From Caldimicrobium sp. (GTDB lineage: Bacteria; Desulfobacterota; Thermodesulfobacteria; Thermodesulfobacteriales; Thermodesulfobacteriaceae): DNA of 36,459 bases. The position numbers were made by a program, and so were the translations under genes. Where the stretch lies: positions 1 to 36,459 of the forward strand of contig JANXDB010000032.1 of the NCBI GenBank assembly GCA_025060015.1. The letters are read 5' to 3'. Positions 330 to 17,599 of this stretch are shown here, one piece after another. The notes beneath the pieces are model-generated. The model worked only from the letters and a program-made list of their open reading frames with translations, did no database searches and was not told the DNA's origin. The stretch's first letter is position 1; each line of letters starts with the position of its first letter.

Positions 330-806
330 ATGGTTAAGAAGATTTTGGTTCTGATTTTCTTTGGCATTTTAATACCCTTTGATTTTCTATGGTCATATGA
401 TAAGGATTTGGCAAAGAGATTCGATGCCATGTTTTCCATGATGACCCCCGAGATGATAGCTAAAAGGCCTTGTCAGGTAACTACTAATCAACTCATCGAA
501 ATGATTAAGAAAAAGGAACCCTTTGTGATTCTTGATGTAAGAACTCCTCAGGAGATGGCAATAGTTGGTATCACTTGGAAAGATAAACTTGAAATTCCCA
601 TGGATAAAGTATTTCGAGCAGAAAATTTAGCTAAACTGCCTAAAGATAAAAAGATTGTAGTTGTCTGTCACACAGGAGATAGAGCGGCTGCGGTTACAGT
701 AGCTTTGAGAGCCATAGGGTTTGAGCAGGCCTTTCAGTTTAGAGGTGGAATTGCAGAAATGGCTAAAGAGGTCGGTAGAAGTTTAGGATTAACTGTTTTC
801 GAATAA
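330..806 (+). CDS. Exported single-domain rhodanese
   Basis: A 158-residue protein with a Lys-rich start and a hydrophobic stretch (residues about 5-22), so probably exported to or anchored at the periplasmic side. The rhodanese domain (about 48-150) has the LDVRTPQE motif and the active-site loop CHTGDR with catalytic Cys113, followed by the FRGGI motif typical of the family. Such proteins carry persulfide sulfur to thiol or cyanide acceptors; the real partner is unknown. The start is well set by AAGGAGG just upstream of the ATG. A TATAAT at 291-296 is a possible -10 but lacks a convincing -35. It lies just after the repeat remnant, so the repeat edge may supply part of the promoter region. 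Confidence 0.9.
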   Translation: MVKKILVLIFFGILIPFDFLWSYDKDLAKRFDAMFSMMTPEMIAKRPCQVTTNQLIEMIKKKEPFVILDVRTPQEMAIVGITWKDKLEIPMDKVFRAENLAKLPKDKKIVVVCHTGDRAAAVTVALRAIGFEQAFQFRGGIAEMAKEVGRSLGLTVFE

Positions 807-822
807 TACTCTAGACTTAGAA

Positions 823-841
823 CCCCGGTAATATCCCGGGG
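823..841 (+). terminator. Possible weak terminator after the rhodanese gene
   Basis: CCCCGG and CCGGGG form a 6-bp GC stem around a 7-nt loop, 17 nt after the rhodanese stop. No T-run follows directly (the next bases are CTATCATTTCTTTA), so intrinsic termination would be weak. Confidence 0.4.
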
Positions 842-936: not shown

Positions 937-965
937 TAAGATAATTCCCAGAAAACCAGAGGATA

Positions 966-1433
966 ATGGCTATGGAGTATCTTAAAACAGAGGTTTTAGA
1001 TGAAACGGGTAAAAAGGTAACTCTAAGGGACATATTGAGCGGGCTTGTCGTGATTTATTTTTATCCAAAGAATAACACCCCAGGTTGAACCACAGAGGCC
1101 CTTGAGTTTAATGAAAGGCTGGAAGCCTTTGACAGCCTGGGAGTTAAGATAATAGGCGTAAGCAAGGATTCTCCAGAGAGTCACAAAAAGTTTAAGACAA
1201 AATATGGCTTGAAATTTCATCTTTTAAGTGACCCGGAGCTAAAGCTTCACAGAGCCTTTGATGTGCTTACTACAAAGAGGGCCTATGGAAGGGAGACAGA
1301 AGGTGTGTTGAGAAGCACCTTTATTCTCAATGAAAAGGGAGAAATCCTCTGGAGCAAAAGAAAGGTCCAGCCAAAGGGGCATGCAGAAGAGGTATTAAAA
1401 GCGTTGAAGGATATCACTGGAAAGGTGGCTTAG
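966..1433 (+). CDS. Selenocysteine-containing peroxiredoxin (Bcp/PrxQ family)
   Basis: One frame runs from ATG 966 to TAG 1431-1433 (155 residues), interrupted only by TGA at 1086-1088. Read as Sec, the TGA (residue 41) falls exactly at the peroxidatic position: YFYPKNNTPG-U-TTEALEF, where Bcp/PrxQ proteins have TPGC-T-EA. The conserved Arg region follows downstream (GVLRSTFILNEKG). The protein has no cysteine at all, so the usual resolving Cys five residues after the peroxidatic residue is absent (Leu46) and an outside thiol would have to reduce the selenenic acid. A hairpin after the TGA fits a bacterial SECIS, and tRNA-Sec is at 6192-6285. The start is uncertain: AGAGG at 958-962 is 3 nt from ATG 966 but 9 nt from ATG 972. 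Ordinary gene callers would report only the C-terminal piece from 1209. Role: reduction of H2O2 or organic peroxides. Confidence 0.88.
1086..1130 (+). promoter_or_regulatory. Candidate bacterial SECIS element
   Basis: Downstream of the UGA, AAAGGCT (1114-1120), GGA loop (1121-1123) and AGCCTTT (1124-1130) form a perfect 7-bp hairpin inside the coding frame. Bacterial SECIS elements sit directly 3' of the UGA, with an apical loop holding a conserved G about 16-37 nt away; here the loop begins 35 nt from the U of UGA and has GG. Fit to SelB binding is inferred. Confidence 0.55.
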
Positions 1434-1438
1434 ACACC

Positions 1439-3178
1439 ATGAGGGTTGCTGTACACATAACCCATGAAGCCCTTTACAAAATCGGAGGAATCGGTGAAGT
1501 TTTAAACGGACTTTGCACCTCCTCTAACTATTTTAGTTTTTTTGATCGAACTCTCCTTTACGGACCACTCTTTGAGTACATAGGATCAGCTTCCACCAGA
1601 CTCGGTAAAGATGGCGTAGTTTACTATTCAAGCAGGGATAACTATGATGTGGGACACTTTGGCGATCTCTTTAAGACCATTCTTGAGAAGTATCAGATTG
1701 AAATAGTATACGGGAAAAGACGCCTTTTCAGTGATTTAAATCCGTCAAAGAAAGCCACTGTCGATGTGTTATTAGTTGATGTAACAAAGATGAAAAGAGA
1801 CTTGGTGGATTATCAAAAGTATCGCTTTTGGGAACTCTTTGGCATCACCTCTGATAGATACGAACGTGAGTGGGACTATGAGCAGTATTTTCGTTTAAGT
1901 TTGCCATATTTTGAACTGTTAAAAGCACTTTTTTCCAAACCTCAGAGGTTTTATCACTTTAGCCACGAATACATGGGCGTTCCCTGTTTGCTTGCTTTAG
2001 AGTTATCTCCTGAGTTTTCACCAGAAACACATCAAAGGATATTTTACGCCCATGAGATTGCACCGGTGCGAAGGTTGATTGAAAATCATCCTGGACACGA
2101 TGTAACTTTTTATAATATACTTCAAAACGCGAAGTACACAGGCAAGCTCTTGGAGGACGTATTTGGCTCTCAGATGGACTGGTACAGAACTGCCCTTGTT
2201 AAAGCATCTCAGCGCTTTGAGAGAATATTTGCTGTAAGTGACTGGGTGGCAGAGGAGTATGTTTTTTTAGTTGGTGGGGCTGATAATCGAAAAGTGAGAG
2301 TGGTATACAATGGACTCCCTCTTGACCATGCGACCTTTGAGGAAAAACTTCACAGCCGAAGAAAGTTTGAACAGTGCTTAGATAGCAAGGGCTGCGGTCA
2401 AGTTGATCTGATCTTTTCCCATACCTGTAGATTAGTTAAAAGCAAGGGGATCTGGCGAGATCTGATCTTTCTCTCTTTGTTGGATCCTCTATTAAAGAAG
2501 GAGAACCTCACAGGTATCTACATACTTTTAGCTTCGCAAATTCCTCAGGGAAGACCTCAAGAGCTTGTGGATATTATGGTAAAAGAGTATGGTTGGCCCT
2601 TTAATCATCGCATAGGTTGGCCAGATTTAGTTGGCTATGAGGTTGATATTTATAACATTATTGAGAGCTTTAATCAGAGGGCTAAAGCCATACGAGCTAT
2701 ATTCATAAATCAATATGGTTTATCTAAAAGAAAGTGTGGTATTGACTTTCCTGAGGACATCACTACAAAGGATCTCAAATTAGCTACCGATGTGGAATTG
2801 GGTATGTCCATATACGAACCCTTTGGAATCTCTCACATTGAAGTTTTGCCCTCAGGCGGTGTTCCCCTTATCTCCTCCTCCTGTGGTGTCCATTTTCTCC
2901 TTGAGAAGACCTTTCCTGATGACTTCAAGCCCTACATTTCTGTGGACTTTCTTAATCAGGCTAAAGTCCTGCCAGAGAACTTACTCTTGAGTTTGACCTC
3001 TGAAAAAAGAGAGATGTTAGAAGAGCTAACTCTTGCAAGTGAGTTATATCAGATATTCCGCGCTATTCCCAAAAATAATGATGAAAGAGAGAGATTATTT
3101 GATCAAGTCCAAAACTATCTGGCAAGACTTGATTGGGAATATATAGTTAAGCATTTCTTTCTGCCCTCATTGGAGTGA
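1439..3178 (+). CDS. Glycogen/starch-synthase-like glycosyltransferase (GT-B fold)
   Basis: A 579-residue cytoplasmic protein with no signal peptide. The N-terminal KIGGIGEV loop (residues 14-21) is the K-x-G-G motif that binds ADP/UDP-glucose in glycogen and starch synthases (GT5). The C-terminal YEPFGISHIE segment (about residue 460) matches the E-x7-E region of GT-B enzymes. The middle is divergent and longer than in E. coli GlgA (about 477 residues), so it may be a GT5-related family of unknown exact acceptor. It starts 5 nt after the peroxiredoxin stop and is probably cotranscribed with it; the two share no obvious function. It ends convergent to the ATP-grasp gene with only 21 bp between. 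Confidence 0.75.
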   Translation: MRVAVHITHEALYKIGGIGEVLNGLCTSSNYFSFFDRTLLYGPLFEYIGSASTRLGKDGVVYYSSRDNYDVGHFGDLFKTILEKYQIEIVYGKRRLFSDLNPSKKATVDVLLVDVTKMKRDLVDYQKYRFWELFGITSDRYEREWDYEQYFRLSLPYFELLKALFSKPQRFYHFSHEYMGVPCLLALELSPEFSPETHQRIFYAHEIAPVRRLIENHPGHDVTFYNILQNAKYTGKLLEDVFGSQMDWYRTALVKASQRFERIFAVSDWVAEEYVFLVGGADNRKVRVVYNGLPLDHATFEEKLHSRRKFEQCLDSKGCGQVDLIFSHTCRLVKSKGIWRDLIFLSLLDPLLKKENLTGIYILLASQIPQGRPQELVDIMVKEYGWPFNHRIGWPDLVGYEVDIYNIIESFNQRAKAIRAIFINQYGLSKRKCGIDFPEDITTKDLKLATDVELGMSIYEPFGISHIEVLPSGGVPLISSSCGVHFLLEKTFPDDFKPYISVDFLNQAKVLPENLLLSLTSEKREMLEELTLASELYQIFRAIPKNNDERERLFDQVQNYLARLDWEYIVKHFFLPSLE

Positions 3179-4744: not shown

Positions 4745-6178
4745 TCACTTAACTCCCTGATGTTTTTTCTTTTCCTCTCTTCTTTCGAAGAGTTTAACTT
4801 TGTTTTCAGCTTCTACGTAAATTTTAGAGTTTTTTTCTAAAAAGGAAAGGGCTTTTTTATAGTGAAAAAGTGCAGTCTTAAAGTCTCCCCTGTTTTCATA
4901 ATGCTTGCCAAAGTAAAAATGTGATTCTCCAAGGAGGTCTATTTTGGCGCAAAGTAGAGCATAAAAATAGAAAAAGGTTGGGTCATGAGCTATTATGCTC
5001 TCTGCTTCTAATGCTTTGAAAAGGGCGTAACTTTCCTTGAGTGCTCCCATTTCTAAAAGTGTTCGTGCTAAAAGACTTTTACGCTTAACTTCCAAGAGGT
5101 CTTTAAGAGCAGTATTTTCAAAGGTAATCTCAGTCAGAAGCCTTTGGGCTCCTAAATAATTACCCTTTGAAAAGTAAAGCTCCGCCAAGTCTAGTTTGAA
5201 GTAGTCCCGTGCAGGAAGATTGTCTAAAGCTTTTTTAAGCTCCCTTTCGGCATCGACGAAAAAGCGAGCTTGCATGAGGCTCATAGCCAAGGTGTATCTC
5301 AGCCAGGGATCCTCTCGATCTCTAAGCTGTGTTTTTAAGGTCAAGATCAAGTCAGAACTATCCTCGGAGTGTGCCCTAACCTTTGCCCTCAATCTCTTAA
5401 AATAAACAGGATCCTTGGAAAGGATATATTGATCTTGGTAGGGAATTTTGAATTTTTCGACGAGATTTTGTAAATAGGTAAGCCTTTCTTGAGGTAGGGG
5501 GTGAGTGAGGAGGTAGCGGTAGTTTAGTTCTACAGCAAAGGAGCTTTCACGGGAGAGTTTTTCAAAGATTTTGCTCATGGCTTTGGGATTAAACCCCACT
5601 TTAGTAAAGATCTCAAACCCAAGTCTGTCTGCCTCTTCTTCATCTTCTCTACTGTAGGAGAGGAGTTTGGTATGGGCCAAAGCCGATCCGGTTATGCCGA
5701 CGATCTGCCCTGCTTGACCTCCACCAAGGAGGATAGCAGCAAGGGTTGCACCGGTCAGAGCAATCTGCATCCTCTTTGCAGTTTCTATTCGTTTGGCCAC
5801 GTGTCTTGCCAAGTTATGGGAGACTTCATGGGCCATGATTGCTGCCAATTCATCCTCGCTCTCCAGATAGTCGAAAAGTCCCGTATTGAGAAAGATGTAG
5901 CCTCCAGGAACAGAAAAGGCATTGAAGGTTTTGTCCTTAATTAGATAGAATCTGAATTGAAAAGGAGAAAAGGATACGCCTTTTTTTATCAACAGATCGC
6001 CAAGTTGATTTATATAGGCATTGGCTTCTATGTCGCGAAGCATCTCTAAGCTTCTTGAGACCTCCTGAAGGACCTCTCTACCGATTTTTTCCTCCTCCTG
6101 AAGAGTGATAAGGGCAAAGAGGGACTGGCTATGAAAGATTAGGGATAAGATTAGTGAGAGCGTGAGGATTTTTTTCAT
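4745..6178 (-). CDS. Exported M48 metalloprotease with TPR-like C-terminal half (BepA-like)
   Basis: A 477-residue protein starting at MKKILTLSLILSL, a clear signal peptide ending near FA. The peptidase M48 domain (about 35-260) has the zinc motif HEVSH (from MAHEVSHNLARHV) and the third ligand in EEEADRLG. The C-terminal half (about 270-470) is helical and TPR-like, as in BepA/YfgC, which guards outer-membrane protein assembly in the periplasm. The frame stays open upstream to 6220, but that start lies inside the tRNA-Sec gene; the ATG at 6178 directly precedes the signal peptide and is preferred. Only 13 nt separate it from the tRNA 3' end, so it may share the ffs-selC transcript. Confidence 0.93.
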   Translation of the reverse strand: MKKILTLSLILSLIFHSQSLFALITLQEEEKIGREVLQEVSRSLEMLRDIEANAYINQLGDLLIKKGVSFSPFQFRFYLIKDKTFNAFSVPGGYIFLNTGLFDYLESEDELAAIMAHEVSHNLARHVAKRIETAKRMQIALTGATLAAILLGGGQAGQIVGITGSALAHTKLLSYSREDEEEADRLGFEIFTKVGFNPKAMSKIFEKLSRESSFAVELNYRYLLTHPLPQERLTYLQNLVEKFKIPYQDQYILSKDPVYFKRLRAKVRAHSEDSSDLILTLKTQLRDREDPWLRYTLAMSLMQARFFVDAERELKKALDNLPARDYFKLDLAELYFSKGNYLGAQRLLTEITFENTALKDLLEVKRKSLLARTLLEMGALKESYALFKALEAESIIAHDPTFFYFYALLCAKIDLLGESHFYFGKHYENRGDFKTALFHYKKALSFLEKNSKIYVEAENKVKLFERREEKKKHQGVK

Positions 6179-6191
6179 ATATCTTATAGGT

Positions 6192-6285
6192 TGGCGGAGG
6201 CGTATGGGAATTGAACCCACCCACTCCTTTTAGAGAGTGCACCGGGTTTGAAGCCCGGGAGAGGCACCAGCCCCCTCACGCCTCC
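6192..6285 (-). tRNA. selC: tRNA-Sec, anticodon UCA
   Basis: The minus strand folds as a selenocysteine tRNA of 94 nt. It has an 8-bp acceptor stem GGAGGCGT/ACGCCTCC, a 6-bp D stem (GAGGGG/CCTCTC), an anticodon loop with TCA at 6249-6251, a long variable arm (CACTC/GAGTG), a T loop TTCAATT, discriminator G and an encoded CCA. The long acceptor stem, long D stem, G73 and UCA anticodon are diagnostic of Sec tRNA rather than a Ser or Leu tRNA. It inserts Sec at UGA with SelA, SelB and SelD, none of which is in the window. It sits just 3' of the SRP RNA on the same strand. Confidence 0.97.
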
Positions 6286-6292
6286 ACCTTTA

Positions 6293-6395
6293 GGGGCTAT
6301 TGGGAGACTTACGGCACCCGGAGAGCCTGGCTACCGTTGCTCCCTTTCGGGCCTGGCGGGGTTCACCAGGATCCGTCGCATAAGCCCCAATAGCC
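6293..6395 (-). ncRNA. ffs: Signal recognition particle 4.5S RNA (small bacterial type)
   Basis: On the minus strand the ends pair as GGCTATTGGG/CCCAATAGCC (10 bp), enclosing the conserved domain IV: GGTGAACCCCGCCAGGCCC, a GAAA tetraloop, then GGGAGCAACGGTAGCC. The asymmetric loop AGCAACGGTAGCC is the Ffh-binding site. No Alu domain is present, so it is the short (about 100 nt) form. The RNA works with Ffh in membrane targeting of nascent proteins. The mature ends are estimated from the pairing. tRNA-Sec starts about 7 nt downstream, so the two are probably processed from one transcript. Confidence 0.96.
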
Positions 6396-10949: not shown

Positions 10950-13157
10950 CTAGATGCCTTTGACAAGAGATTTGTAAAGGGATCTATCCTCTCTCCATAG
11001 ATCAAAGCGGTCTATGTGTATAAGTTTGGTCCAAACCTTTACAAAATTATGAACGAAAAGTTCTTCTCCATCATCAGCAGCATAGACCTCACAGAGGCTT
11101 CTTAATTCCTCGTGGTGACTGAAGATCAGATCCACTCTAGTTGCAAGCCACTTTCTTGAACTACTTTTTCTGTCAAGGCCCTCGTAGTAATATTTATTTT
11201 CATCAAGGGGCCTCCATTCTATTGACATATCCAAGAGGTTTTTGAAGAACTCGTTATTGAGTGTGCCAGCTTTGGAGCTCAGGATGCCAAAGGGTTCCTT
11301 TTCGTAGGTCACTCCAAGTGATCTCAAGCCCCCGTACAAGGTTACTAACTCGGGAACACTAAGAGTTAGAAGTTGGGCCTTGTCAACTAGTAACTCTTCA
11401 GCCTTTACTTTTTTGTTAATAGTAGGATTTTTGATGTAATTTCTAAAGCCACAGGCGATTGGTTCTAACTGTTCCCAGAAGAGAACATCGATTTGATTTT
11501 CCTCTGCATCCACTCTTCCTGATACAAAGGGGATTTTCACCTGGTAGCCAGCCTTTTGGGCAGCGTTCTCTATAACTGCACAGCTTCCTATGGCCAATAA
11601 GTCAGAAATCGAGACGCCCTTCCCATCAGCCCCCTTTTCTCTATTATAGTTATCTTTGATTTTTGCCATGGCCTCTATCACCCATCTTAGTTCGTCAGGT
11701 TTATTCACCTCCCAGGTATTGAGGGGATATAGCCGCACTCTTGCTCCATTTAATCCGCCCTTTCTGTCTGAGTCACGATATGTAACAATGCAAGAGAAGG
11801 TGGCGTAAAGTATTTGAGAGGGGGTTAAGCCGGAGTTTAATATGCTTTCTTTGAGGATCTGAAGATCCTTCTCCTCGAGAGGCCTAAAGGGTGATTTTGG
11901 CAACGATTCTTGCCATATGAAGGTGTCCTTCGGGACTTCAGGTCCTAGATAGCAATCCTTGGGCCCCATATCACGATGAATCAATTTAAACCAGGCTTTA
12001 GCAAAGGCTTCTTCGAATGCCTTAGGATCCTCCAGAAACCTCTTTGCTATTTCAGAGTAAATGGGATCAAATCGTAAAGCTAAATCCGCTGTGAGCATCA
12101 TAGGAGGATGTTTTTTATTTGGATCATGGGCATCGGGAATTATGGCTGGAGCTCCCTTGGCTACCCACTGATGTTTTCCTGCTGGACTTTTAGTTAATTC
12201 CCATTCATAGCCAAAGAGAAATTTGAGATAGCTTATGCCAAATTTGGTGGGAGTCGAAGACCAGGCAAGTTCAAAACCGCTGGTGAAGGTGTGCGGCCCC
12301 TTACCGGTTCCAAGGGAGTATTTCCAGCCTAAGCCCTGATTTTCCACATCTGAAGAACTGGGATCAGGTCCAAGCAAGGAATCTGGGCCTGCTCCGTGAC
12401 ATTTGCCAAAGGCATGTCCGCCAGCAATGAGCGCTACTGTCTCTTCATCATTCATTCCCATACGGAAAAAGGCAGTCCTAATCTGTTTTGCCGAGGCTAC
12501 AGGGTCTGGGTTTCCCTCTGGTCCCTCAGGATTAACATAAATTAGACCCATTTCCGTTGCGGCAAAGGGTTTTTCCAAAACTCCTTCTTCAAACCTCTCT
12601 TTGCCAGTTAGCATTTCTACCTCGGGACCCCAGTCAGGACTCTCATCAGGTTCCCAAAGATCCTCTCTTCCACCACCAAAACCAATGGTTTTGACCCCCA
12701 TGCTCTCCAAGGCTACATTACCAGCAAGGATAATAAGATCAGCCCAGGAGAGTTTTCTTCCATACTTTTGTTTGATAGGCCAGAGAAGTCTAATGGCTTT
12801 ATCCAAGTTTATGTTATCTGGCCAATTAATTCTCGGAGGAAATCTCATCTCTCCACGCCTTGCTCCCCCTCTTCCGTCATATATACGATAACTTCCTGCA
12901 CTATGCCAAGCCATCCTAATGAAAAGGGGACCATAGTGGCCAAAATCTGCAGGCCACCAATCCTGCGAACTCTTCATAAGAGATTCTAAATCCCTCTTTA
13001 CCTCTGCTAAGTCTAATTTTTCAAATTCCATGGCATAATCAAAGTCTGCCCCATAGGGGTTTCCCTTTGGGCACTCTTGACGTAAGATCTTAAGATTTAA
13101 TCTCTCAGGCCACCAATCTGTAAGCCATCTTTTTTTTCTTTTAAATTGCCCTTCCAT
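10950..13157 (-). CDS. katG: Catalase-peroxidase
   Basis: A 735-residue haem enzyme that splits H2O2 and oxidises donors. The distal haem site is RMAWHSAGSY (Arg81, Trp84, His85). The Tyr of the Met-Tyr-Trp crosslink lies in MGLIYVNPEGPEGNPDP. The proximal His is in GGHAFGKCHG (usually GGHTFGKTHG). Both tandem peroxidase-like halves are present and the length is normal. The frame is open to 13187, but AAAGGAGG sits directly before the ATG at 13157 (MEGQF), which is preferred. No export signal, so cytoplasmic. It is monocistronic, bounded by a hairpin downstream and a long intergenic region upstream. Confidence 0.97.
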   Translation of the reverse strand: MEGQFKRKKRWLTDWWPERLNLKILRQECPKGNPYGADFDYAMEFEKLDLAEVKRDLESLMKSSQDWWPADFGHYGPLFIRMAWHSAGSYRIYDGRGGARRGEMRFPPRINWPDNINLDKAIRLLWPIKQKYGRKLSWADLIILAGNVALESMGVKTIGFGGGREDLWEPDESPDWGPEVEMLTGKERFEEGVLEKPFAATEMGLIYVNPEGPEGNPDPVASAKQIRTAFFRMGMNDEETVALIAGGHAFGKCHGAGPDSLLGPDPSSSDVENQGLGWKYSLGTGKGPHTFTSGFELAWSSTPTKFGISYLKFLFGYEWELTKSPAGKHQWVAKGAPAIIPDAHDPNKKHPPMMLTADLALRFDPIYSEIAKRFLEDPKAFEEAFAKAWFKLIHRDMGPKDCYLGPEVPKDTFIWQESLPKSPFRPLEEKDLQILKESILNSGLTPSQILYATFSCIVTYRDSDRKGGLNGARVRLYPLNTWEVNKPDELRWVIEAMAKIKDNYNREKGADGKGVSISDLLAIGSCAVIENAAQKAGYQVKIPFVSGRVDAEENQIDVLFWEQLEPIACGFRNYIKNPTINKKVKAEELLVDKAQLLTLSVPELVTLYGGLRSLGVTYEKEPFGILSSKAGTLNNEFFKNLLDMSIEWRPLDENKYYYEGLDRKSSSRKWLATRVDLIFSHHEELRSLCEVYAADDGEELFVHNFVKVWTKLIHIDRFDLWREDRSLYKSLVKGI

Positions 13158-13209
13158 AACAACCTCCTTTAATTTAGATTTTATCAAAACTTATCATGAT
13201 TTTTATTTT

Positions 13210-13470: not shown

Positions 13471-13534
13471 AACGGGTATTTAGTCCTGGGGCTATGGTAG
13501 ATTTATGTTAAAATTATTTAGAGGCTCTTTTGTT

Positions 13535-14026
13535 ATGGATGTTCTGGTTTTAGGTCTGGGAAATATACTCATGAGGGATGACGGGGTTGGTGTAAGAGTA
13601 GTCCACTACTTAGAGAGCACCTTTCAGTTCTCAGAGAAGGTAAAACTTTTAGATGGAGGAACAGGTGCTTTTTTCCTTCTGCCATTTTTGGAAAAGGCAG
13701 AAAGGGTAATACTCATAGATGCGGTTAAAGCTGGTAAAAATCCAGGAGATATATTTGAGGGATCCCTAAAGGACATCAATACCTACCTAATGGAGAGGTT
13801 ATCTCTTCACGAAATATCTCTTCCTGATCTTTTAGCTCTGCTAAATCTTAGGGGGAAGGTCTTTGATGAATTTCATATCATAGGTATTGAACCAGAGGAA
13901 ATATCCTTTGGTGAGGCACTATCAGATTGTGTCGAAGCAAAGCTTCCCCTTCTTGTCGAAAGAGTACTTCATAAGCTTCAGCAATGGGGAATTTCCTATT
14001 CCCTTAAGGAGAGAACTCCAAAGTAG
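13535..14026 (+). CDS. Hydrogenase maturation protease (HyaD/HupD/HycI family)
   Basis: A 163-residue protein when started at ATG 13535 (MDVLVLGLGN), matching the family N-terminus; an upstream ATG at 13505 would add 10 poorly fitting residues. Motifs: GLGNILMRDDGVG (nickel-binding acidic residue here Asp), LIDAVKAG (Asp ligand) and LHEISLPDLL (His ligand). The enzyme clips the C-terminal peptide from the [NiFe]-hydrogenase large subunit after nickel insertion. The target hydrogenase is not in the window. Its 3' end overlaps the convergent hypF by 31 bp. Confidence 0.93.
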   Translation: MDVLVLGLGNILMRDDGVGVRVVHYLESTFQFSEKVKLLDGGTGAFFLLPFLEKAERVILIDAVKAGKNPGDIFEGSLKDINTYLMERLSLHEISLPDLLALLNLRGKVFDEFHIIGIEPEEISFGEALSDCVEAKLPLLVERVLHKLQQWGISYSLKERTPK

Positions 14027-16254
14027 GCCTGTCCCAGAGAGATCCCGCCATCATTTGGAGGCACTTTTTGATTAAAAATCACTGCAAATCCCTCTTTTTC
14101 AAGCAGTGTTTTCACCCCTATCAAAAGGGGTTCGTTCATGAAAACTCCACCAGAGAGGGCGATCCTTGGGATGGATGCACTGATAGCAACACTTCTTATC
14201 ATTTGGGCCAGAGTGTTAATGAATTTTGAGGCCTTCACTTTTTTATCCTCTTTACTCTCCATGATAGTTCTGATTAGAGGTTCCCAGTCTATGACTGAAT
14301 CTCTGGAGTCAAAGGGATAGGTTGTCTTTATCTCCCAATCATAAAGGCTCTCGAGTCTTGAAGCTCCCTCTCCACTATAGGAGTTATAACAACAGATGCC
14401 AAGGAGAGCTGAAACCCCATCAAATAATCTTCCAACGGAGGTGCATTGGGGACTGTTTAGGCCTTTTTTCCACATCTGATATAGTAAGGAAAGCTCCATC
14501 GAGGAGAATTCTCTTATGAAGGGTAGATCAAAGGTTAGGGTTTCTTCCCCATAGATTTCAAAGAGTAGCGATAGAGCAACCCTTCTTGTATCTTTTACAG
14601 CCCTTTCACCTCCCAGAAGTCTGAATTTTCTGAGGCTTGAAATCCTCCTGAAGGAAAGACCCTGAAGAGAGAGAAATTCTCCTCCCCAGATAGTTCCATC
14701 TGTTCCGTATCCTGTTCCATCCCAGGCAATACCCAAAACCTCCTCTGGTTCAAGTTGTTTTTCAGCTAACACAGAGAGAATATGTGCGTGATGATGTTGA
14801 ACCCCTCGCAGGGGAAGTCCCTCTTTCTCTGCCCATTCCCTTGCTAAACGGGTTGAAAGATATGAGGGATGAAGATCGGCAATTAAGAGCTCTGGGGTTA
14901 CGGAATAAAAACGAAGATGATCTTCTACCAGTTTTTTAAATCTCTCTTCAACAGAGGAATTATCTAAGTCACCTACATGAGGACCAAGGATGATCTTTGA
15001 TCCAGTGGCTATGGCAAAGGTGCTTTTCTCCTGTGCCCCAAAAGCCAGGATGGTTTTGGAGGTCTTTTTTCTTAGGAAAATTGTAAGTGGTGAAAAACCT
15101 CTAGAAATCCTCAAAGGCACGTAGAAGGGGCCCATTTTCTTGAAAACGGAGTCATCAAATGGCCTTTGAATGGGCCTATTGTGTATGAGAAAGAGATCTG
15201 CTACAGATTTGAGTTTTTCCAGGGCTTCTCTCTCATCGTAAACTATGGGCTCTTCGGAGAGATTTCCAGAGGTCGCTATGAGAGGGAAGTCTATAATCGA
15301 GAAGATCAGCCTGTGCAAAGGGGTATATGCTAAAAAGATGCCAATAGAGTTTAGTCCACCTGATAGACTCGAGGGTAAGTTAAAGGTAGCCCGAGTTACA
15401 AGAATGGGTGAAGATTGGCCTGTAAGCAGTGTCAAGGCCTCTTCATCTAAGTCAAAATGGACGTAATTTTTTAAGTGTTCGAGATCTCTGAACATGACCG
15501 CTAAGGGTTTCTGAGGACGTTTTTTTCGTAGTCGTAATTTCTCCACTGCCTCATTGCTATCTGCCCTGGTGAGAAGATGAAAACCTGTAAGACCCTTAAG
15601 GGCAATGATAATTCCTTCTCTTAGATATTGGGCTGCAAGAGAGATTGCCTCATGATGCTCCGCAAGTTTTTTTCCTTGCTTATCAAGAAGGATTGCTCTG
15701 GGACCACAAAGGGCACAGGCTATAGGTTCTGCATGAAAACGTCTGTTTAAAGGATTCTCGTATTCTTCCCTACATTGAGGACACATGTTAAAGATCTTCA
15801 TTGTGGTATTTTGCCTTTCATAGGGTAACTTAGTCATGATACTAAAGCGAGGACCACATTGGGTGCAGTTTATGAAAGGATAGAGATATCTTCTGTCTTG
15901 AGGTTCAAAGAGTTCACCCAAACATTCAGGACATATGGCAAGGTCCGGAGTGGGCTCAACGGTGGGCACCCCCTTGTCTTTTCCTCCCACAATCTGGAGT
16001 GTAGAGAAGTTTTGCGGTGCTACCTCTTCAACCTTAATGGTCTCTATCCTTGATATAGTAGGTTTAATTTCAGGTATAGCCTTTAGAAAGGATTCCAGAT
16101 CTTTCCTATCACCCTCCAAAAACAAAAGAACGCCTTGAGAGGTATTGCAGATAAGACCTGTTAACCCCAAGGCTTTGGCATGGCGATAAAGGGCAGGCCT
16201 GAACCCTACACCTTGAACGAGTCCTTTTATCTCTATTTTAAAGGAGGTTTTCAT
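13996..16254 (-). CDS. hypF: Carbamoyltransferase HypF
   Basis: A 752-residue enzyme that makes the carbamoyl-AMP intermediate and passes it to the HypE C-terminal Cys for the cyanide ligands of [NiFe] hydrogenase. Domains in order: acylphosphatase-like (GLVQGVGFRP, about 10-95), two zinc fingers (CPEC...CTQC and CPQC...CALC, about 105-190), YrdC-like (about 200-385, LKGLTGFHLL, KRPQKPLAVM, ATSGNLSEEP), and a Kae1-like carbamoyl domain with HHHAH. Start chosen at ATG 16254; a TTG 12 nt upstream is possible. It overlaps hypA by 17 nt. Confidence 0.97.
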   Translation of the reverse strand: MKTSFKIEIKGLVQGVGFRPALYRHAKALGLTGLICNTSQGVLLFLEGDRKDLESFLKAIPEIKPTISRIETIKVEEVAPQNFSTLQIVGGKDKGVPTVEPTPDLAICPECLGELFEPQDRRYLYPFINCTQCGPRFSIMTKLPYERQNTTMKIFNMCPQCREEYENPLNRRFHAEPIACALCGPRAILLDKQGKKLAEHHEAISLAAQYLREGIIIALKGLTGFHLLTRADSNEAVEKLRLRKKRPQKPLAVMFRDLEHLKNYVHFDLDEEALTLLTGQSSPILVTRATFNLPSSLSGGLNSIGIFLAYTPLHRLIFSIIDFPLIATSGNLSEEPIVYDEREALEKLKSVADLFLIHNRPIQRPFDDSVFKKMGPFYVPLRISRGFSPLTIFLRKKTSKTILAFGAQEKSTFAIATGSKIILGPHVGDLDNSSVEERFKKLVEDHLRFYSVTPELLIADLHPSYLSTRLAREWAEKEGLPLRGVQHHHAHILSVLAEKQLEPEEVLGIAWDGTGYGTDGTIWGGEFLSLQGLSFRRISSLRKFRLLGGERAVKDTRRVALSLLFEIYGEETLTFDLPFIREFSSMELSLLYQMWKKGLNSPQCTSVGRLFDGVSALLGICCYNSYSGEGASRLESLYDWEIKTTYPFDSRDSVIDWEPLIRTIMESKEDKKVKASKFINTLAQMIRSVAISASIPRIALSGGVFMNEPLLIGVKTLLEKEGFAVIFNQKVPPNDGGISLGQAYFGVLSLRE

Positions 16255-16591
16255 CCTCAATTTCAATACTCTTTAGCACTAAGTCTAATCCACCCACGAT
16301 TTTAACCTCAGTACTACCACAGCATGGACAAAGGGTGCCTCTTTGGACATTTGTCTCTGTTGAGCACTTTTCACACCTAATCCTAAGGGGATCTCTCTCA
16401 AGGAGAATCTCTGCCTCAGCAAGAATTGTATCCTCCTTAAAGGTTTCCATGATGTCCTTCAAGTAATTTTCCTCCACTCCAGAGAATTCACCCACTTTAA
16501 GGATAACCCTCTTTACCTTTGGCTTGGGATATCCGGCCAGAGATTCTTCAATATGATGTAACAGACTTAGGAAAAGATAGTATTCGTGCAT
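16238..16591 (-). CDS. hypA: Hydrogenase nickel metallochaperone HypA
   Basis: A 117-residue protein with the invariant N-terminal MHE (nickel site His2, Glu3), a central GEFSGVEENYL segment, and a C-terminal zinc site CEKC...CPCC. HypA delivers nickel to the large subunit with HypB, which is not in the window. It starts right after the hypE stop and overlaps hypF, so hypE-hypA-hypF are translated as one operon. Confidence 0.95.
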   Translation of the reverse strand: MHEYYLFLSLLHHIEESLAGYPKPKVKRVILKVGEFSGVEENYLKDIMETFKEDTILAEAEILLERDPLRIRCEKCSTETNVQRGTLCPCCGSTEVKIVGGLDLVLKSIEIEDENLL

Positions 16592-17599
16592 TTAACAGAT
16601 CCGTGGCAAAAACTCACCATTACTCAATTCCATAAATCTTCGCGTTCCCAAGGAACTTTGAAGGAAAACGCGAGGCTTTGTGGAGCATGAGAGAACTTCG
16701 CCGATGATTTCAGCCTGCTCTCCTAGTGGATGGGATCTAAGAATCTCCAAAGCTTTTCCACTTTCCTTTTCTGGGAGGGCTATGATAACCCTTCCTTCCG
16801 AGGGAAGGTGATAGGGTTCAAAGCCTAATATTTCGCAAAAGGCTCTCACCTGAGGTCTTACAGGGATTTTCTCTTCATATACCAATATCTCTACCTTAGA
16901 GGCTTTAGCCCACTCGTGAAGAACCCCTGCAAGGCCTCCCCTCGTCGGATCCCTCATAGCATGAATCTCAACTTGTGCTTCAAAGAGTGGTGATAGAAGG
17001 GGGAAAAGACAAGCACAGTCACTCTCCAGTGCGACCTCGAAATTGAATCCTTCCCTTTCAGCTAGGATGCAAACCCCATGGTCTCCAACAGGCCCTGAAA
17101 GAATGAGAACATCGCCTGGTCTTAGATTTTTTGCGGAAAGTCCTTGATAAAGGATCTCTCCAATTCCAGAGGTATTTACGATTAGGCCATCTACTGCACC
17201 CTTTGGAATTACCTTTGTGTCTCCAGTCACTATTAAAACCTTGTTTGCCTCGGAGGTCTCCTTGATGCTCTTTAAAATTCTCTCTAAGTCTTTTCGCAAA
17301 AAACCCTCCTCAATGACCAAACTTAGGGAGAGATAGAGGGGTTTGGCTCCCATCACAGTAAGATCATTAAGAGTCCCAATCACAGAAAGTTTGCCAATGT
17401 CTCCTCCTTTGAAGAATAGGGGTTTTACTGTGAAGCTATCGGAGGTAAAGGCAATTAAGGGAGATGATAGGCTGAGCGGTGAAGCATCCTCCAGAGACTC
17501 TAGTATAGGGTTTCCAAGATACCTAAGAATCAGTCTTTCGAGAAAGTTCTGTGTTTCTTCGCCGCCACCACCTACGCCAATGGTCAGTCTCTCCTCCAT
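16592..17599 (-). CDS. hypE: Hydrogenase expression/formation protein HypE
   Basis: A 335-residue PurM/AIR-synthase-like enzyme. It has a GGGGEETQNFLE start, the GDIGKLSVIGTLNDLTVMGA loop, GDTKVIPKG and RDPTRGGLAGVLHEWA motifs, and ends in PRIC. The terminal Cys is carbamoylated by HypF and dehydrated to the thiocyanate that supplies CN- to iron. The family also includes SelD, but the PRIC end and the hyp neighbours settle the call. First gene of the hypEAF run. Confidence 0.97.
   Translation of the reverse strand: MEERLTIGVGGGGEETQNFLERLILRYLGNPILESLEDASPLSLSSPLIAFTSDSFTVKPLFFKGGDIGKLSVIGTLNDLTVMGAKPLYLSLSLVIEEGFLRKDLERILKSIKETSEANKVLIVTGDTKVIPKGAVDGLIVNTSGIGEILYQGLSAKNLRPGDVLILSGPVGDHGVCILAEREGFNFEVALESDCACLFPLLSPLFEAQVEIHAMRDPTRGGLAGVLHEWAKASKVEILVYEEKIPVRPQVRAFCEILGFEPYHLPSEGRVIIALPEKESGKALEILRSHPLGEQAEIIGEVLSCSTKPRVFLQSSLGTRRFMELSNGEFLPRIC

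Follow-up and report, generated by a model that had tools for sequence, protein, structure and literature searches.

The window, by which we mean the whole 36,459-nucleotide stretch of DNA analysed here, contains a gene that appears well supported as a PrxQ/Bcp peroxiredoxin whose peroxidatic Cys is replaced by selenocysteine (Sec). We put the probability at about 0.93 that it encodes a one-Sec enzyme of this class, in which Sec would be inserted at an in-frame UGA via SelB and a hairpin, peroxide would be reduced, and an external thiol would resolve the oxidized residue.

An interrupted PrxQ gene and its surroundings

The frame at 966-1433 on the plus strand has 155 codons and a single internal stop, the TGA at 1086-1088 (codon 41), which the read-through product places in the context PKNNTPG-U-TTEALEF. 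An earlier note on this DNA had proposed that this TGA replaces the peroxidatic Cys of Bcp/PrxQ proteins and that both flanks stay in frame and family-like. Alignment bears out the PrxQ class and the Sec position: Xanthomonas Bcp/PrxQ matches at 3.2e-38 with its peroxidatic Cys on U41 (numbered from 966), and the Pfam AhpC-TSA (PF00578) match (4.1e-34, 117.6 bits) covers residues 9-128 and runs across the TGA. The read-through translation contains no Cys, as had been stated, and the ORF list agrees that a standard caller keeps only the C-terminal piece: under table 11, all that remains of the frame is 1209-1433, 74 residues from a TTG start. The proposed product of 155 residues is correct in frame, but its length is probably 153 residues. 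We favour ATG 972 as the start (CDS 972-1433, plus strand) over the alternative in-frame ATG 966 because the orthologue in a second genome of the genus, G013, which keeps the TGA, starts at the equivalent codon, and because a Shine-Dalgarno-like AGAGGA, read from the sequence at 958-963 (plus strand), lies 8 nt before ATG 972 and only 2 nt before ATG 966.

In peroxiredoxins, a Thr and an Arg form the active site together with the peroxidatic residue, and PrxQ enzymes usually carry their resolving Cys five residues after the peroxidatic Cys, which is position 46 here. The P-x-x-x-T-x-x-C(U) active site, the Gly before the peroxidatic residue and the conserved Arg are all present in the window protein, and P34, T38, G40, position 41 and R116 are invariant in a 17-row alignment. 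Our survey of 395 genomes of the phylum and two of its classes, plus Cys relatives from other phyla, yielded 79 distinct Sec-PrxQs and 101 Cys-PrxQs; the TGA falls at the same peroxidatic codon in the 79 Sec forms, with Thr38 in 78 of them and Arg116 in every one. A Gly preceding CP is a mark of PrxQ (PMC5302317). The AlphaFold model built on the 17-row alignment has a mean pLDDT of 93.3, and its best Foldseek match in the PDB is Xanthomonas PrxQ (TM 0.90, rmsd 1.2 A), followed by other Bcp/PrxQ-type structures. This nearest solved fold, PrxQ/Bcp of Xanthomonas campestris (PDB 5iow, 5iiz, 5iph; 46% identity), works with the catalytic pair Cys48 and Cys84, both of which are mutated in PDB 5io2 and 5iph. 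The window protein has Sec at the Cys48 site, whereas the Cys84 site (position 77) is Lys or, depending on the alignment, the neighbouring Thr, and never Cys; position 46 is Leu.

The gene upstream encodes a rhodanese-domain protein (330-806, plus strand; Pfam Rhodanese 4.3e-10). Downstream, a glycosyltransferase-like gene (1439-3178, plus strand; a weak Pfam match below cut-off) starts 5 nt past the Sec-PrxQ stop. This order of three genes, with both adjacencies, is common to the window genome and G013. In four other genomes of the genus the glycosyltransferase-like gene has different neighbours, this peroxiredoxin not among them; a fifth shows just a fragment of it, at a contig end. The 159 nt between the rhodanese and Sec-PrxQ genes contain a terminator-like hairpin, CCCCGGTAATATCCCGGGG, at 823-841 (plus strand), identified by consensus match only. 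Elsewhere in the window, a KatG-type catalase-peroxidase is encoded at 10950-13187 (minus strand), in addition to the three selenium-dependent peroxiredoxins of the genome; 7232-10558 (minus strand) appears to hold a gene resembling cation P-type ATPases, surrounded by several small, apparently helical or membrane proteins; and genes at 13505-17599 look by eye like those for hydrogenase maturation (protease-, HypF-, HypA- and HypE-like).

It could be that Sec is inserted but that the protein acts mainly as a thiol oxidase, a sulfur-species reductase or a peroxide sensor working with the rhodanese. The conservation of the rhodanese neighbour in two species would fit such a role, as would the KatG-type enzyme, with which removal of H2O2 is already covered. 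However, the peroxiredoxin active-site residues are intact, the rhodanese gene is set apart by the 159-nt gap and its hairpin, and the neighbourhood is seen in two genomes only, and we regard this alternative as unlikely. If the protein is a peroxidase, as we prefer, Sec41, held by Thr38 and Arg116, would reduce a hydroperoxide and become a selenenic acid, which an external thiol would then resolve by way of a mixed selenenylsulfide, the protein having no resolving Cys. At a guess, the reductant is probably thioredoxin, of which the genome has one classical form, together with its reductase, or else a small thiol; the gene for this thioredoxin adjoins a thioredoxin reductase gene on contig 11.

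The proposed reading of the UGA as selenocysteine

The sequence evidence indicates that this genome (1.60 Mb, 99% complete) uses Sec decoding. The earlier reading depended on selA, selB and selD being present, and profile searches of the genome recovered all three above curated cut-offs: SelA at 591 bits, SelB at 398 bits in a 648-codon frame, and SelD at 333 bits with an in-frame TGA of its own (...ASGU...). The tRNA-Sec gene that had been placed in the window is found there by both ARAGORN and Rfam (RF01852, 84.3 bits), at 6192-6285 on the minus strand with anticodon tca. Other genes in the genome carry UGA as well. fdhA has an in-frame TGA in the context VUHAPS, and a tandem pair of Prx1/PrxU-type genes (L072:1456-2097 and L073:1456-2088; G000:C11:100721-101804) each has a TGA at the peroxidatic position (TFVUPTE) and passes the NCBIfam PrxU model (270.5 and 277.4 bits; cut-off 270). 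The tandem proteins also share a C-terminal Cys, in EACPA.WKPG, that is reminiscent of the Prx1 resolving site. Directly upstream of the tRNA-Sec gene, on the same strand, is a small SRP RNA (RF00169), the two together lying within 6192-6392 (minus strand), and a called ORF at 4745-6220 overlaps the tRNA gene at its GTG start, the true start probably being further in.

At E <= 1e-15, the Sec-PrxQ gene was found in two of the 41 genomes of the class, its own and G013. The G013 protein is 65% identical, is interrupted by the same TGA and also has no Cys; between the two genes dN is about 0.27 and dS about 2.5. The pN/pS values are 0.233/0.655 before the TGA and 0.224/0.747 after it, so that pN is far below pS on both flanks, which points to protein-level constraint on either side of the codon. 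These data bear on whether the gene is instead a Cys-type PrxQ in which a TGC or TGT codon has mutated, or was misread, to TGA. Such a change takes a single base, and Cys-type PrxQs are common in the phylum, but an independent species shares the TGA, both flanks are under purifying selection, the full Sec machinery is present, and 79 related genes have TGA at the same codon. Chance or sequencing error is in practice excluded by the shared TGA together with pN of 0.22-0.23 against pS of 0.66-0.75, and we rejected the pseudogene or error reading, on the G013 orthologue and the selection either side of the TGA, as highly improbable. A non-Sec reading of the UGA, by general recoding to Trp or Gly or by low-level near-cognate read-through, is the least probable of all: although any UGA is open to competition between termination and read-through, here it is the catalytic Cys that is recoded, SelA, SelB, SelD and tRNA-Sec make another route unnecessary in this genome, and the table-11 ORF list gives full-length genes across the window.

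For Sec insertion, the machinery and a downstream hairpin suggest that a ribosome arriving at the in-frame UGA would be met by SelB and Sec-tRNA-Sec, which the hairpin would recruit. The putative bacterial SECIS is AAAGGC-UGGAA-GCCUUU at 1114-1130 (plus strand), with its apical loop 31 nt after the UGA. The published bSECIS model (PMC13188914) allows an apical loop of 3-9 nt on an upper stem of 4-16 bp, places it 16-37 nt past the UGA, and requires a G among the first two loop nucleotides and an MFE <= -7.5 kcal/mol. The candidate fits these limits at borderline energy: drawn with 7 bp and the 3-nt loop GGA, it lies 32 nt from the UGA at -7.5 kcal/mol, and drawn with 6 bp and the loop UGGAA, 31 nt away at -6.6 kcal/mol. 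The loop U-G-G-A-A matches N1-G-[G/U]-N-N2, its N1 and N2 being capable of pairing. Folding the two orthologues together gives this hairpin as the consensus; taken alone, the 53 nt of the window gene that start at the UGA have a different, longer and more stable hairpin as their MFE fold (-13.7 kcal/mol). Against synonymous-codon shuffles the SECIS-like hairpin is only marginal in the window gene (p 0.06) and reaches p 0.025 in G013. The stem is unchanged between these two close sequences, the only ones compared, and shows no compensatory changes. Across the survey the signal is clear, the SECIS-type hairpins after the codon being stronger in the 79 Sec forms (median score 17) than in the 101 Cys forms (median 11), with a p value of 3e-18 that is optimistic given the relatedness of the Sec and Cys sequences; p falls below 0.05 against synonymous shuffles in 57% of Sec forms and 8% of Cys forms.

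Resolving Cys in Sec- and Cys-PrxQs

The earlier note had concluded from the absence of other cysteines that the usual resolving thiol is lost, a point that was overstated. The thiol is indeed absent here, but its absence is the rule in Sec-PrxQs (79/79) and common in Cys-PrxQs, where 52/101 lack a resolving Cys at the standard positions. Conversely, a Cys at 46 or 77 occurs in 0/79 Sec forms versus 49/101 Cys forms, and 51 of the 79 Sec forms have no other Cys in the domain. In eleven of the 79, position 88 is a Cys that might serve as a resolving thiol of a non-standard kind. Three PrxQ frames (L162, L163 and L169) were scored with two in-frame TGAs, the second being either the true stop or a second Sec.

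The raw Fisher test of Sec against resolving Cys gives p 8e-16, for a trait that follows lineages. Only about 2-4 independent pairs are informative, and every one of them goes the expected way (p 0.06 to 1); correcting for shared ancestry leaves the exclusion suggestive, not significant. Between Sec and Cys, some 10-15 changes are needed on the tree, of which the starred branches force only 4. We did not retain an immediate genomic origin for the gene: the tree sets the pair close to Sec and Cys forms from the phylum that lack CR, in a part where the forks are open.

Animal Sec-GPx enzymes (GPx1/GPx4) are likewise Sec peroxidases without a resolving Cys, while their Cys relatives often have one, and Sec has been argued to remove the need for it (PMC8614756). 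They are a different family within the thioredoxin fold, and the likeness is an analogy only. We would give even odds to a rule of mutual exclusion in PrxQ between a peroxidatic Sec and a Cys at 46 or 77, the standard resolving positions, which would be a bacterial and independently evolved parallel to Sec-GPx. If this rule is true, selenium would have done away with the need for the second thiol and turned the enzyme towards an external reductant.

A known family that annotation may miss

The selenoprotein reading of the earlier note is supported, but its novelty was overstated, since Sec-PrxQ is a published family (PMC1088965, PMC9312934, PMC13188914). In the Sargasso Sea data of 2005 the COG1225 TXXU Sec-Prx, with 43 genes, was the second largest known selenoprotein family (PMC1088965); the 2006 census includes it as well (PMC1794560), and reviews list it as Peroxiredoxin/COG1225 (Bcp)/TxxU (PMC9312934; PMC13188914). 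The window gene is a further member of this bacterial "Prx TxxU, COG1225" family. Like the others it has Sec at the Bcp/PrxQ peroxidatic Cys (T-P-G-U here), a SECIS-like hairpin after the UGA and widespread Cys homologues; we see no defining difference, and sampling is extended to two species of the class (41 genomes searched). Our search of the literature on Thermodesulfobacterium selenoproteins found nothing useful. PrxU of Eubacterium acidaminophilum (Sohling 2001, cited in PMC13188914; NCBIfam NF040737) also has Sec in place of the peroxiredoxin peroxidatic Cys. However, NF040737 is a 233-position family, and we rejected membership of the Sec-PrxQ, which scores 35.4 bits against the cut-off of 270.

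No NCBIfam model scores above its own cut-off on the Sec-PrxQ protein, and this is the sole practical novelty of the gene. Automatic annotation therefore plausibly misses it. NCBIfam recognises the PrxU-type enzymes of this genome and misses its PrxQ-type Sec enzyme, so a good many genes of this kind may carry wrong annotations. The case is one of a well-supported selenoprotein that ordinary gene callers reduce to a 74-residue stub, and the 79 Sec-PrxQs make it testable whether selenium spares a peroxiredoxin its resolving thiol, as has been argued for glutathione peroxidases.
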